Positions 29,979-36,182 of a stretch of DNA of 36,182 nt are shown here, piece after piece. The stretch comes from Candidatus Saccharimonadota bacterium. Its GTDB lineage: Bacteria; Patescibacteriota; Saccharimonadia; Saccharimonadales; JAQGHD01. The notes beneath the pieces are model-generated. The model had not been told where the DNA came from. It saw nothing but the letters and a program-made list of their open reading frames with translations, and made no database searches. The position numbers and the translations under genes are program-made. The stretch is from contig JAQGHD010000026.1 in assembly GCA_028288965.1 (NCBI GenBank), positions 1 through 36,182 of the forward strand, in the 5' to 3' direction. Each line of letters begins with the position of its first letter. Within the stretch, counting starts at the first letter, position 1.

Positions 29979-30980
29979 ATGGCTTTATTAAGTTCCACAA
30001 TCAACGGTTACTGGTTAGCTACCGACTACGACCTGAAGCAATTCAGAGAAAAATTACTGCTGGCTTTTATTCGTTTAAAGTCGGCTTCTTACGGGTTGGT
30101 ACTCACCAACATCTTAACAGGCCTATTCATTTTACAGCTGGTCTACATTTTGCCATTTAGTCAGGTATACGCCATGAGCAATAACATCACGACAGCTGAT
30201 ACTGGGTATCAAAGGGTGCAAGCCCAGCTGTCACAACGGGCCCTAACGCCTGTACCCAAAGAGCAACCTAAACCAGTTGCCCCGGCAGTGGCCGCTCCAC
30301 CTAAAGTCCAGACCCTACAGTCAATTGTGAGTGCTTGGCAGGCAAGCCATAAGGGAGAATACAGTATTGTTATGCGCAGCCTTGATGGCAGGACCAATGC
30401 CGCCTACGCTGGAAATACTCAGTTTGTCAGCGCTAGTATTTATAAGCTGTACGTGGCCTATGCGGTTTACACCAAGATGGCCGCCGGGGAGATGCAACCA
30501 GGAACCGTAACCTCTACGGGCTCTAACGTGGACTACTGCCTAAATGCGATGATTGTGGTGTCGGACAACGACTGTGCCCATGCCTTACTCAATATGGTGG
30601 GACCCAACACGGCAGAAGCCATGGTTCATCAGCATGGGTTTACCAATACGTTTCTAGCTAGTCAGACAAGTTTTATTACTACCGCAAGGGACACAGCTCA
30701 GCTGCTCACTGAGTTAGAATCAGGCACATTGATCAGGGCTGATTACCGGCAAAGTTTGCTGGGACACATGAGCCAACAGATATACCGAAGCGGCATCCCG
30801 GCCGGATCAAAAGGTATACGCGTAGCTGATAAAGTTGGCTATATAGATAGCTACAACCACGATGCTGGAATTGTCTACCATCCAAGCGGTAAGTACGTGT
30901 TGGTCATCCTAAGCTCGGGCTCTAGTTATGCCAACATTGCCGATTTGACTCGTCAAATCAATGCTTACATGAGTAAGTAA
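29979..30980 (+). CDS. Membrane-anchored class A beta-lactamase-like serine hydrolase
   Basis: TM segment; SIYK (SxxK) in FVSASIYKLYVAYAVY; SDN in VVSDNDCAHALL; KVG in place of KTG. Confidence 0.85.
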   Translation: MALLSSTINGYWLATDYDLKQFREKLLLAFIRLKSASYGLVLTNILTGLFILQLVYILPFSQVYAMSNNITTADTGYQRVQAQLSQRALTPVPKEQPKPVAPAVAAPPKVQTLQSIVSAWQASHKGEYSIVMRSLDGRTNAAYAGNTQFVSASIYKLYVAYAVYTKMAAGEMQPGTVTSTGSNVDYCLNAMIVVSDNDCAHALLNMVGPNTAEAMVHQHGFTNTFLASQTSFITTARDTAQLLTELESGTLIRADYRQSLLGHMSQQIYRSGIPAGSKGIRVADKVGYIDSYNHDAGIVYHPSGKYVLVILSSGSSYANIADLTRQINAYMSK

Positions 30981-31741: not shown

Positions 31742-32449
31742 ATGTCAAAAGACTCAACCTTAAGACCATTGCAGCCAGTCCGTATGCTCGAAGCCGGTAC
31801 GCCCACGCAAGTGAGTGATGCCCTTGATAAACTGCTTCGTTCAGAAGTACCAGGCTTTATAATTCGTGCCGCTAACCAACGCCAAGACCCTTTAGAGGTG
31901 CACCAAGTCATTAGCCAAGAACTCAACAATCAAGTTGCGGCTCGACGCCCCCAAATGGTAACTAACCTGTCGGCTGTACTTAGAGGAAATCCGGCTTTTG
32001 ACCAAAATGATCGTGACCCGGATAAGCGGGGGCGCAGGGTATTTCACTTTGACGGGTCTTACGCTGACCATCCCAGCCTGCGTTACAACACAAGAGATGT
32101 TGCCGTGCACACGACTGATAAGGGCGCGCCAACTGTAATTTTAGCTGAACCGGGACCAGCCTTTCCTTTACTGGTAAGACAGGCCAAGCACACAAGTCAT
32201 GGACGTGAGCAAATGTATGCCCAGGCAACAGACTTGCTCAAAAAAGGCATGGTAGATTCTGATATTACTTCGCCAGATGTCCACGTGGCCAAGGCTACTC
32301 GCGGTGATACAGTGGTGATGGGTGTCCAAGAAGGTGACATGACTAAAGATGTTTGGCACGCTTTTGTCAGCGACAACCAAGCGGGCCCCCGGACTTTTCA
32401 CGCTTCTGAAATCAACTCACATCAAGTGATTGATAAAAACGATCTTTAA
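31742..32449 (+). CDS. Putative 2OG-Fe(II) oxygenase/cupin-like protein
   Basis: HFDGSYADHPS (HxD) followed by DVWHAFVSDNQAGPRTFH (distal His and Arg), layout of a TauD/PhyH-like double-stranded beta helix. Confidence 0.5.
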   Translation: MSKDSTLRPLQPVRMLEAGTPTQVSDALDKLLRSEVPGFIIRAANQRQDPLEVHQVISQELNNQVAARRPQMVTNLSAVLRGNPAFDQNDRDPDKRGRRVFHFDGSYADHPSLRYNTRDVAVHTTDKGAPTVILAEPGPAFPLLVRQAKHTSHGREQMYAQATDLLKKGMVDSDITSPDVHVAKATRGDTVVMGVQEGDMTKDVWHAFVSDNQAGPRTFHASEINSHQVIDKNDL

Positions 32450-33519
32450 ACGTTAAAACGGAATTCTACAACATCGCTTTCACGCATAACGTACGTTTTT
32501 CCCTCGGTACGGACTTTGCCGGCAGAGCGCGCTGCAGCCAAAGAACCGGCCGCAATCAAATCATCGTAGCTAACAACTTCTGCAGCAATAAAGCCGCGTT
32601 CAAAATCACCATGAATCACCCCAGCCGCTTGCGGAGCCGTGGCGCCCTGGGCAATGGTCCAGGCCCGGACTTCTTTATCGCCCGCCGTCAGGTAGCTTTG
32701 CAGACCGAGTGTATCGTAAGCCGCGTGAATGAGTTGGTCTAGGCCCGGTTGAGCTTGACCGTAACTTTCTAGCAGTTCCTGGGCATCGGCCTCATCCAAA
32801 CCTTGCAATTCGGCCTCTAGCTTGGCGCAGATAAAAACACTAAACGCCCCAGGTACTAGCTGGCGCAAGGCGTCTTTTTGGGCTGTATCGGCTAGCGTGG
32901 TTTCATCGACGTTAAAGACATAAATTACCGGTTTAGCGCTCAGCAAGAACAGATCGCTCAGTTGCTCCAGCTCGATATCATTCGCCGCCGAAAGGGGAGT
33001 GCCGCTGTCTAAATACGCCTGGGCCTTTTTTAAAGTGACCAGCACCGGCCCCAGTTTGGGGTTGGCTTTGGCCTCTTTTTCTACCTTTGGCAGGCGATTG
33101 GCCACAGTTTGCAAATCGGCCAGCACCAGTTCGGTATTGATAACTTCAATATCCTTGGCAGGATTATGCTGCTCATCCACGTGCTGTACGTTAGGATCAG
33201 CAAAAGCCCGCACCACGTGGGCAATGGCTTGACTGCTGCGAATATTGGCCAAAAACTGATTGCCCAGGCCCTCGCCCGTAGAAGCACCGGCCACCAGCCC
33301 GGCAATATCTACAAACGTCACCGTGGCTGGCTTTATGGGTGCACCGTTATACAGCTCACTCAGTTTACCCAGGCGCGGGTCTGGAATAGCCACCATGCCA
33401 GTGTTGGGCTCAATAGTGGCAAAAGGGTAGTTAGCTGCCAAAATATTATTGTCAGTCAGGGCATTAAACAGGGTGGACTTCCCAACGTTGGGCAATCCGA
33501 CTATACCTATGCTTAGCAT
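32446..33519 (-). CDS. ychF: Redox-regulated ATPase YchF (OBG-family)
   Basis: Start refined to MLSIGIVGLPNVGKSTLFNALT; NYPFATIEPNTGMVAIPDPRL; VDIAGLVAGASTGEGLGNQFL; C-terminal TGS domain. Confidence 0.97.
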   Translation of the reverse strand: MLSIGIVGLPNVGKSTLFNALTDNNILAANYPFATIEPNTGMVAIPDPRLGKLSELYNGAPIKPATVTFVDIAGLVAGASTGEGLGNQFLANIRSSQAIAHVVRAFADPNVQHVDEQHNPAKDIEVINTELVLADLQTVANRLPKVEKEAKANPKLGPVLVTLKKAQAYLDSGTPLSAANDIELEQLSDLFLLSAKPVIYVFNVDETTLADTAQKDALRQLVPGAFSVFICAKLEAELQGLDEADAQELLESYGQAQPGLDQLIHAAYDTLGLQSYLTAGDKEVRAWTIAQGATAPQAAGVIHGDFERGFIAAEVVSYDDLIAAGSLAAARSAGKVRTEGKTYVMRESDVVEFRFNV

Positions 33520-33626
33520 ACAACCCGATCTTTTAATTTCATCTGTTAATTTTAACATGCTTGGGGAATGCCAACTGAGTTTACAGAGGTAGCACAATAT
33601 GATGGAAAATGGTATTCTCTAACTAA

Positions 33627-35018
33627 ATGACTGATGACTTACTAACGCAACCTGCACAACGAGATGTTATTGAGAGTTTTGCTGCTGAAATTCGTAAGAG
33701 CAAGATGGAAGTTAAGGGCAATAAGCAAGCTATACCGTTTCGACCAGATGTTTTAACCAAAAAGGTTAGGCAAGTCTACTTAGTACCTACGACACTTCTT
33801 CGTTTTCGCCAAGAAAATGGTCGTATCGCTTCCGATGTCGAAAGCTACGAAAAATCTCACGAACCTCTAGACGAAACGAAAAAGAATGACCAGGATCAGT
33901 TGCGTAAGTTTTTGGAGGATAAAGATCCTGAGAAGACTGAAGAACTTGTAAGAAGCCTTGAGCATGACACTCAACAAGAGCCAGCAGTAATTACTGCCGA
34001 TGGTTTTCTTATCAATGGAAATAGGCGAAAAATGGCGCTTGAAATTCTTCAGGAACGCACGCACGACCCCTCTCAGTTCTCACATATGAAGGTTGTCATT
34101 TTGCCCGACAGGGACGAAGAAGGTGGCGAGCCTACGAAAGTTGATATTGAGCTTCTTGAGAATGCCTACCAGTTTCACCATGAAGGCAAATCAGAGTATT
34201 ACAACTTTGACAGGGCTCTTTCTATCAGGAGAAAGGAACAGGAAGTCGGTATCCCTCTAGAAATGCAGCTAAAACAGGATTCAAAATATGCCAAGCTGAC
34301 CGATAAGAAATTTGAGCAAGAGGTAAAGAAGTACAGGGACGATTATCTTGGCCCACTCGAATGCATTGATAAATATCTAGAGTACATTGGTAGGCCTGGT
34401 GATTATAGCGCTATTTCAGGTGGTAAGGCGGATCGAATGGGCAGCTGGCAGGCGTTCCTCGACTACTACAAGTCTGTAGACCGCAATCTTAGAGAAGTGA
34501 AAACACGTCTGAAAATGAATGTTGAGGATTATGAGGTAAGTGCAGTTGAAGATGCTGCGTTTAAAATTCTTCGTCAGCGTGACTTTGGTGGTAGCAGTAA
34601 TGCTTTTGTACCAAACAAGATCAACGACATTATGCGTAAACTTCCAAGGGTCTTGCAAAATGCACAGGCCAAAAAAGAACTGCTTAAGCTAAAGTCTGTT
34701 CCTGATGGAGAAGGAGTGGACGATGCAGAGTGGATAGAGGAGAATCATAAACGAGTTTCCCATCTAGTAACCGAAGCATTTCGACAAGTTAATAACCAGA
34801 ACGAGCGCGAAGAACCCATTGCTAAGCTTGAACGCGCGCTCAATCTTTTGAACTCTGAAGATATAGACCCAAGCGGTGTGCCTATCTCAAACCTACCAGA
34901 GGGCCTAAAAGTCATCAACGCACTAAAAGATAGGGTTGAGGAGTTGAAGGATGGTTTCTGGCATGCAAACAAAAAATCTAATGATGCAATGGATCATCTA
35001 AAGTTTCGATCCAGCTAA
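33627..35018 (+). CDS. ParB/Srx-fold N-terminal domain protein, putative defence or DNA-modification component
   Basis: VRQVYLVPTTLLRF...QQEPAVITADGFLINGNRRKMALEILQER: ParB-like GxRR motif; long helical C-terminal region; no ParA neighbour. Confidence 0.75.
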   Translation: MTDDLLTQPAQRDVIESFAAEIRKSKMEVKGNKQAIPFRPDVLTKKVRQVYLVPTTLLRFRQENGRIASDVESYEKSHEPLDETKKNDQDQLRKFLEDKDPEKTEELVRSLEHDTQQEPAVITADGFLINGNRRKMALEILQERTHDPSQFSHMKVVILPDRDEEGGEPTKVDIELLENAYQFHHEGKSEYYNFDRALSIRRKEQEVGIPLEMQLKQDSKYAKLTDKKFEQEVKKYRDDYLGPLECIDKYLEYIGRPGDYSAISGGKADRMGSWQAFLDYYKSVDRNLREVKTRLKMNVEDYEVSAVEDAAFKILRQRDFGGSSNAFVPNKINDIMRKLPRVLQNAQAKKELLKLKSVPDGEGVDDAEWIEENHKRVSHLVTEAFRQVNNQNEREEPIAKLERALNLLNSEDIDPSGVPISNLPEGLKVINALKDRVEELKDGFWHANKKSNDAMDHLKFRSS

Positions 35019-35034
35019 TTTACGAAGGCGTTAT

Positions 35035-36182
35035 ATGTTATTAGATTTACAGGACGATGAGCTTGTCCTGAGTATTAGCTCTTCACTAGCAACGTATCAA
35101 AAACGTCAATTTAGCTACTATGGCGCTCGGCAAGATACTGAGGGTTCTTTTCACTTTAAGGATGCATCAGCAGAATTGGTCAACCGTCTAATTGCATTTT
35201 GTGAGGCTGAAGAGCTTAAGATCGATCTCACGCCTCCCGTTCAGGGATTAGTCGTTAAGCATCAAAGTGAGCAGTCTTATCATCAGCAGTTCATCTCGAA
35301 TGCTGGTAATTTTAAAAATGGTAAATATAGTAAAGAAGACTACGCTGCACATGTAAACTTCCTAAACAAACATATTCAAAGAAAGCTACTTGATCATCAG
35401 GTAAAAGCATCTTACCACCTGTCGTTAGTAGGCAATGGCGCAAACTTTTCTGTACCAGGTAGCGGAAAGACAACGGTTCTACTCAGTTATTATGAAAAGC
35501 TCAAAACAATGCATAAGGTTGATGTACTTTTTGTCGTAGGGCCTCCAGCATGTTTTGGTCCGTGGAGAGATGAATTCAAGGTTGTATTGGGTAGAAACCC
35601 TAATGAATGCTTGCTTGCTGGTGGCAGCCAGACCGATAGAAAAAGGCTTTATTCGTATCCACCCGAAGGTGCTGAACTCTTTCTGACCACCTTTCAGACC
35701 TTACAGAATGATTTCGGTCTTGTTAAGTCGATGCTGGCCAAGGATAATCTAAGAGCTTTGCTTGTGATTGACGAAGCTCACTATATTAAGCAAGTCGATG
35801 GTAGATGGGCGAATGCAGTGCTTGCTATTGCACCTGCAGCAAAATATAGATGCGTGCTAACAGGTACTCCTGCGCCACATAGCTATAAAGATTTGTTTAA
35901 TCTCTTTGCCTTCCTCTGGCAGGAGCACTCACCAATTAGTGACGAGGATCATGCGAGGCTGGAAATTTATGAAAAAAATCACGACTACGAAAGAGCTGGT
36001 AAGCTCTTGGCTCCAAAGCTAGATCCACTTTTTTATAGAGTACGCAAGAAAGACCTAGGCTTAATGCCTCAACACATGAATGTTGTGCCACTTAAGATGC
36101 GCCCAGCAGAAAAGGCAATTTACGATGTTGTTATAGGTAATGTCAGAAGGCTTACGACCAGAGATTACTTAAAGCAGATGGA
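35035..36182 (+). CDS. SNF2-type superfamily 2 helicase, 3' truncated by the window edge
   Basis: My translation from ATG 35035 stays open to the end: MLLDLQDDELVLSISSSLATYQKRQF...; Walker A ANFSVPGSGKTT; LLVIDEAHYIK; VLTGTPAPHSYKDLFNLFAFLW; SNF2-like RVRKKDLGLMPQHMNVVPLKM. Confidence 0.88.
   Translation, partial: MLLDLQDDELVLSISSSLATYQKRQFSYYGARQDTEGSFHFKDASAELVNRLIAFCEAEELKIDLTPPVQGLVVKHQSEQSYHQQFISNAGNFKNGKYSKEDYAAHVNFLNKHIQRKLLDHQVKASYHLSLVGNGANFSVPGSGKTTVLLSYYEKLKTMHKVDVLFVVGPPACFGPWRDEFKVVLGRNPNECLLAGGSQTDRKRLYSYPPEGAELFLTTFQTLQNDFGLVKSMLAKDNLRALLVIDEAHYIKQVDGRWANAVLAIAPAAKYRCVLTGTPAPHSYKDLFNLFAFLWQEHSPISDEDHARLEIYEKNHDYERAGKLLAPKLDPLFYRVRKKDLGLMPQHMNVVPLKMRPAEKAIYDVVIGNVRRLTTRDYLKQM

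Follow-up and report, generated by a model that had tools for sequence, protein, structure and literature searches.

The two genes that close the window, which is the whole of contig C24 (36,182 bases), raise the question of which system a ParB-like protein and a SNF2-type ATPase could serve together. The source genome comprises 915,775 bases in 30 contigs and is 94.4% complete; its size and its relatives are consistent with a candidate-phylum bacterium of reduced genome. A first-pass annotation of the window had described a 463-residue ParB-like gene located after ychF and followed, 16 bp further on the same strand, by a SNF2 gene; both genes (ORFs 33627-35018 and 35035 onwards) and the upstream ychF, encoded on the opposite strand, were confirmed. 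The pair had been placed at a right edge. It does lie at the end of the window, but the contig stops where the window stops, so that this edge is an assembly break and not a biological border. The features of this region are:

32446-33597, strand opposite to the pair: ychF (ORF call, Pfam)
33627-35018, plus strand: ParB/Srx-fold-like protein, 463 aa, first gene of the island (ORF, PHROG, AlphaFold2 model, relatives)
33966-33980, plus strand: C-motif-like loop TQQEP, residues 114-118 (Q116 invariant in an alignment of 40 relatives)
34017-34028, plus strand: P motif (Box II, GxxR) GNRR, residues 131-134 (invariant in the same alignment)
34158-34172, plus strand: ENxxQ motif, residues 178-182 (E178 and Q182 invariant in the same alignment)
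35035-36182, plus strand: SNF2-type ATPase, first 382 residues, open at the contig end (ORF, Pfam)
35035-35379, plus strand: N-terminal region of about 115 aa of the SNF2 protein (family-wide in the SNF2 alignment)
35455-35472, plus strand: Walker A motif PGSGKT, residues 141-146 (nearly invariant alignment columns)
35770-35781, plus strand: Walker B motif DEAH, residues 246-249 (SNF2 alignment)

The window also encodes a 333-aa protein (29979-30980, plus strand) with a serine beta-lactamase-family domain (PF13354, 1.8e-34), which is perhaps a cell-wall serine hydrolase and does not imply resistance, and a 235-aa protein (31742-32449, plus strand) for which Pfam gave no significant match.

The ParB-like ORF (33627-35018), which contains ITADGFLINGNRRKMAL, encodes a protein that has no significant match in Pfam, where the ParB family does not match either. 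Weak ParB-like matches were obtained in PHROGs (phrog_620, 0.001), no PADLOC model matched the protein at E 1, and no specific family was found for either protein of the pair in PADLOC, NCBIfam or PHROGs. The ddrB-ParB family was matched by 2 of 40 members of the ParB-like family, the best at 8e-4, and sequence searches of the PDB with the ParB-like protein and with the NOV_C protein presented below, as single sequences or as profiles, gave no match. The AlphaFold2 model of the ParB-like protein (pLDDT 89.3) has ParB N-domains as all of its ten top PDB matches, the best of these fold matches being weak (E 0.042, probability 0.99). Furthermore, plasmid relatives of the protein carry ParB annotations. 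On the basis of the PHROG matches, the plasmid annotations, the conserved nucleotide motifs and the fold matches, the first protein of the island is considered ParB/Srx-fold-like, with a weak fold match in the predicted model. Full-length relatives are found across many phyla and are mostly 30-47% identical.

In CTP binders the C motif is GLQEP and the P motif is defined as GxxR; folds of the ParB-CTPase type bind CTP, ATP or GTP, and sequence cannot tell which (PMC12704722). The TQQEP, GNRR and ENxxQ motifs of the window protein appear to match the C motif, the P motif and the ENLQR motif of ParB-CTPase proteins, respectively, the last counterpart having been mapped by eye against known ParB sequences. 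E78 of Bacillus subtilis ParB belongs to the GERR motif, whose glutamate, needed for CTP hydrolysis in that protein, is replaced by asparagine in the window protein (GNRR). Hydrolysis by B. subtilis ParB requires both E78 and E111 (PMC8494293). As the GERR glutamate is exchanged for asparagine and the E111 site would be kept as E178 if the motif mapping is right, it is possible that NTP hydrolysis by the ParB-like protein is slow or absent.

The part of the SNF2 protein encoded in the window is matched in Pfam by SNF2-rel_dom (2.4e-16), its best ATPase match, and by ResIII (1.9e-10). The GSGKTT, DEAH and TGTPAP motifs read in the first-pass annotation are all present, its N-terminal region of about 120 aa is real and recurs throughout the family in the alignment, and the Walker A, DEAH and arginine-finger motifs are intact. 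The helicase core is distantly similar to ZorD, PbeA, DrmD, DpdE and BrxHII (PADLOC, NCBIfam), the NCBIfam matches lying far under the curated cut-offs.

An extension to the right had been expected to reveal a nuclease, a methyltransferase or another effector beyond position 36182. When the contigs of the genome were searched with the SNF2 proteins of relatives, each of them matched only two places at E 1e-3, namely the window and, on the minus strand, the terminal ~600 bases of contig C12, where the following feature is encoded:

C12, 24299 down to 23652 (9999-9352 of locus L046), minus strand: C-terminal 215 residues of the SNF2 protein (Helicase_C 2.4e-8, QSLDRIHRVGG)

According to the alignment with complete relatives, ~28 residues, or about 84 bp, are missing between the two halves, and the genome yielded no further copy of either half, the remaining matches up to E 10 being at chance level. 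Proceeding inwards from this end of C12, the C-terminal SNF2 half is followed by genes for a NOV_C nuclease of the PD-(D/E)XK type and an N4/N6 DNA methyltransferase and, 207 bp further, by a glycosyltransferase-like gene. Both kinds of enzyme that had been anticipated are thus encoded in the same genome, across an inferred join of ~84 bp, and the genes after SNF2 are not housekeeping genes. It is very improbable that the C12 genes do not continue those of the window and belong instead to a mis-binned contig or to a second system. No overlap or paired reads attest the join, and synteny gave no proof of it, since the flanking glycosyltransferase occurs in a useful context in 0 of 61 relatives, those of the same order included; but both contigs break inside one gene, their halves are complementary, no other SNF2 half of this family was found in the genome, the island genes on both contigs have a GC content of 40-43% against 48% for the genome, and many relatives share the gene order, so that C24 and C12 are very likely contiguous. 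The low GC content also suggests horizontal transfer, and the four-gene island was probably acquired in this way; no repeats of at least 11 bases common to both island borders were found. About 2 kb past the island, C12 encodes a 1175-aa protein (L046 1825-5352, minus strand) that combines Ig-like domains with a glycosyl hydrolase 99 domain (9.5e-12) and is unusual-looking in a reduced genome.

The NOV_C (formerly DUF3883) protein of C12 has 316 aa (PF13020, 1.8e-9). Residues E182, E189, D216, E232, V233 and K234 are invariant in 47 of 47 NOV_C proteins, and E249 is present in 46 of them. The AlphaFold2 model of the NOV_C relative from locus L090 (35% identical, pLDDT 93) has the type II enzyme R.SwaI as its nearest PDB structure, followed by Hjc resolvases, with modest fold-match scores (best E 9.4e-3). 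An intact PD-(D/E)XK nuclease is the most plausible reading of the NOV_C protein. Its N-terminal part shows much lower conservation (18% versus 34% mean pairwise identity), which would fit a recognition role, and may read sequence or methylation state. The methyltransferase (330 aa; PF01555, 6e-42), whose best solved relative is the PvuII N4-cytosine methyltransferase (1.1e-26), has intact TSPPY and DPFVGSGTT motifs. As in a restriction-modification system, the island combines a linked DNA methyltransferase with intact motifs and a linked nuclease with an intact predicted active site.

A scan of one genome per species returned 272 relatives, the best 80 of which were kept as loci. Among these best 80 of 272, SNF2 adjoins ParB in 76, and the contig ends within ParB in the remaining four. 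With locus classes derived from neighbour clustering and from a few Pfam-identified representatives per cluster, the effectors of the best 80 of 272 loci are NOV_C (56), PNP (7), HNH-ParB (7), MutH (3) and type III Res (2), five being unassigned, and the methyltransferases are of the beta-class, D12, C5 or type III Mod types. The ParB-SNF2 pair is constant, and the nuclease or effector and the methyltransferase are exchanged. The arrangements are as follows: (i) group A, nearest to the window (mostly 30-47% identity), encodes ParB-SNF2-NOV_C and then a methyltransferase that is either beta-class, like that of the window island, or D12; (ii) in Bacteroidota and in a single Ignavibacteria genome, ParB is preceded by a PNP_UDP_1 protein and NOV_C is missing; (iii) another, mainly Bacteroidota, clade has an HNH domain at the ParB N-terminus; and (iv) group B encodes a C5 methyltransferase with ParB-SNF2-NOV_C, often together with Vsr or a DpnII-like enzyme, three copies from candidate phyla encoding MutH in place of NOV_C and lactobacilli encoding type III Mod-Res-ParB-SNF2. 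Where a DpnII-like enzyme co-occurs, the main restriction activity may not be that of NOV_C. Loci L072, L073, L078, L079, L082, L084, L107, L115 and L148 match the window island in their four genes and in gene order and strand. The PNP locus L077 reads PNP-ParB-SNF2-D12, and L090 is complete, with ParB-SNF2-NOV_C and a methyltransferase. In a quick tree of SNF2 proteins (75 rows, SH-aLRT support only), the effector state changes at least eight times and the methyltransferase state at least nine times, and the window protein falls within group A, where it clusters at 97 with two Pelagibacteraceae sequences on long branches. The ParB family is present in 4 of the 393 genomes of the class to which the source genome belongs, the other three having C5-type methyltransferases nearby.

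Several loci show further arrangements. In a Thermoplasmata archaeon, a 719-aa DUF1156-N6_N4_Mtase protein (L120 7528-9687) precedes ParB and represents a further methyltransferase type at the core. In Glaciecola, a 304-aa protein without a Pfam match (L105 8834-9748) lies before ParB at the effector position, in a clade otherwise composed of HNH-ParB loci; it is possibly a new effector or adaptor. Two ParB-like genes occur near one SNF2 gene in L121 and L132, in tandem in the former, which is from Nanoarchaeota.

In a tblastn search of plasmids and phages, ParB lies beside SNF2 and restriction-modification genes in most of the records inspected; on plasmids, phages and chromosomes these neighbours are type III mod/res, C5, MutH/Sau3AI-type, DpnII-like, Vsr and Mrr genes. 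One record (L002) encodes mod-res and ParB with no SNF2 annotated after ParB. A broad search (A1) found the ParB family on 13 viral or plasmid contigs, two distant ones of which also retain NOV_C; a narrower motif search of viral contigs (A2) found no relative, and blastn found no Escherichia coli relatives. A ParB-like protein with many relatives on plasmids or phages, one of which, the distant viral/plasmid-like locus L165, encodes a ParA-like ORF about 3 kb from ParB, could be imagined to serve the partition or replication of a mobile element. The probability of such a module is next to negligible, as no canonical ParB_N match was found in the window protein or in the genome, the constant partners are SNF2, nucleases and methyltransferases, and many copies are chromosomal. 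The first-pass judgement that a ParB-like gene without ParA does not indicate chromosome partitioning is in line with the relatives, which sit in restriction-modification neighbourhoods and not with parA or rep, with L165 as the exception. ParABS partition itself was rejected, with no PF02195 match in the protein or the genome and no parA beside the pair. At E 0.001, PF02195 was absent from the source genome and present in 10 of 14 control genomes; a standard ParB may be missing from chromosome partition in the source lineage.

The Vsr repair genes beside several C5 copies are what a methylation-linked regulatory or repair unit might leave, in which SNF2 would remodel DNA for the methyltransferase and the nuclease would repair it. 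Such a unit is extremely improbable, because loci in which PNP, HNH, MutH or type III Res substitutes for the nuclease would be hard to account for. Another alternative is that the ParB-SNF2-effector triad is a sensor of damage or invasion that triggers an abortive-type effector, the linked methyltransferase being an antidote or a mark and not one half of a sequence-specific restriction enzyme. PNP_UDP_1 proteins replace NOV_C in seven loci, and a match to the CBASS PN-superfamily effector model (4.9e-19) was obtained with the one tested; for PNP effectors, the listed activity is degradation of (d)ATP (PMC10952713). In the HNH-fused ParB clade, where a motif pattern identified the HNH domain in seven loci, PADLOC in the one tested (L108) and Pfam, at a borderline level, in L110, the L108 protein matches CBASS endonuclease effectors (2e-20). 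In addition, the Pelagibacteraceae loci L114 and L117 encode ParB-SNF2-NOV_C with no recognised methyltransferase in the examined flank, so that methylation may not be obligatory. We nonetheless regard the abortive mechanism as unlikely for the island, since the window copy has a nuclease and an adjacent same-strand methyltransferase and most loci have linked methyltransferases in the manner of restriction-modification systems.

The first-pass proposal of a defence or DNA-modification island is supported by the nuclease and methyltransferase of C12 and by the restriction-modification neighbourhoods of the relatives. Probably, the pair makes up the first two genes of an island of four, an ATP-dependent restriction-modification-like defence system composed of ParB-like, SNF2, NOV_C and N4/N6 methyltransferase genes. 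The set of genes and its order over a single short assembly gap, the intact motifs and the conserved pair with exchangeable partners are directly observed, and a restriction-modification-like defence built on the ParB-SNF2 core is the best reading of the function they encode. In such a system, the methyltransferase would mark host DNA at a given sequence and so protect host sites. The NTP-bound ParB-like protein could clamp DNA or serve as a licensing switch, loading the SNF2 motor onto DNA or keeping it there; powered by ATP, this motor would translocate and deliver the NOV_C nuclease, whose variable N-terminal part would possibly sense sequence or methylation state, and unmethylated phage or plasmid DNA would be cut by NOV_C. 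In relatives, the same core would drive another weapon in place of the nuclease, and the match of the PNP and HNH replacements to CBASS effector models suggests a sensor and motor with an exchangeable weapon. It is conceivable, and proposed here tentatively, that ParB-SNF2 is the sensor-motor core of an undescribed defence superfamily of wide distribution, where a ParB clamp switched by NTP would, together with a SNF2 translocase, read methylation state and fire interchangeable effectors (PD-(D/E)XK, HNH, MutH-like and type III nucleases, and an ATP-destroying nucleosidase).

Among known systems, CglI and NgoAVII comprise a DNA methyltransferase together with a nuclease and a helicase-like ATPase, the last two being separate parts and the ATPase being required for cleavage (PMC4267653, PMC5737866). 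The island likewise has separate methyltransferase, nuclease and helicase-like ATPase genes and, by analogy, would work most like these systems. It is not counted as a member, because the CglI/NgoAVII ATPase is described as a DEAD-family one and ParB is not mentioned for these systems, whereas the island has a SNF2 ATPase, a NOV_C PD-(D/E)XK nuclease and a constant ParB-like fourth gene. The analogies with Dnd/Dpd, DISARM and MORC/Z1 clusters drawn in the first-pass annotation stand as loose resemblances, but their defining parts are missing from the island, and MZB/DUF1998 and PglZ from the genome. DISARM, Zorya I, Dpd and BREX type 3 share with the island a SNF2 ATPase in an anti-phage or DNA-modification cluster and a distant similarity of its helicase core to DrmD, ZorD, DpdE and BrxHII, respectively. 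DISARM was rejected (DrmB-type MZB/DUF1998, PF09369, not found in the genome; no DrmC-like gene in the island), as were BREX (PglZ, PF08665, not found in the genome) and Dpd/Dnd (no DpdA or DndACDE/DndB among the island genes and no PADLOC match for the ParB-like protein). Zorya differs in that no ZorA or ZorB is found among the island genes, and MORC/Z1 clusters in that no MORC or Z1 protein is found there. Dnd/Ssp and GmrSD/BrxU (ParB-superfamily DndB, DUF262) also have a ParB/Srx-like NTP-binding protein in a defence cluster, but the island lacks sulfur-modification genes and has the GNRR motif. CBASS shares the PNP nucleosidase and HNH effector classes with relatives of the island; its core differs, being a cyclase instead of ParB-SNF2, and no cyclase or SAVED was identified among the clustered neighbours. 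A 2013 HEPN survey described DUF3883 as a novel REase domain fused to a SNF2 helicase in restriction-modification operons (PMC3710099); the island differs from this fusion by its separate genes and its ParB partner, and the passages on this fusion do not describe a ParB-SNF2 core with exchangeable effectors. No description of a ParB-SNF2 system was found in the open-access literature, and reports in subscription journals or REBASE may exist. The island thus looks like an undescribed kind of restriction defence, of which the association of SNF2 with DUF3883 in restriction-modification operons is already known (PMC3710099).

The pair spans many bacterial and archaeal phyla, plasmids and phages, and its ParB domain was unmatched by PADLOC in the proteins tested. 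Classical restriction systems consist of a methylase and a nuclease, with or without a helicase. Here, the constant pair would be a ParB-like nucleotide switch and a SNF2 motor, and the weapon and the methylase vary, including a CBASS-type PNP that does not cut DNA. If this is true, methylation-based recognition of self and non-self can be wired to effectors other than restriction enzymes, and the tentative superfamily would unite restriction-modification with CBASS-like abortive immunity in a single system. ParB-fold proteins would then act in immunity, perhaps as NTP-dependent DNA clamps.
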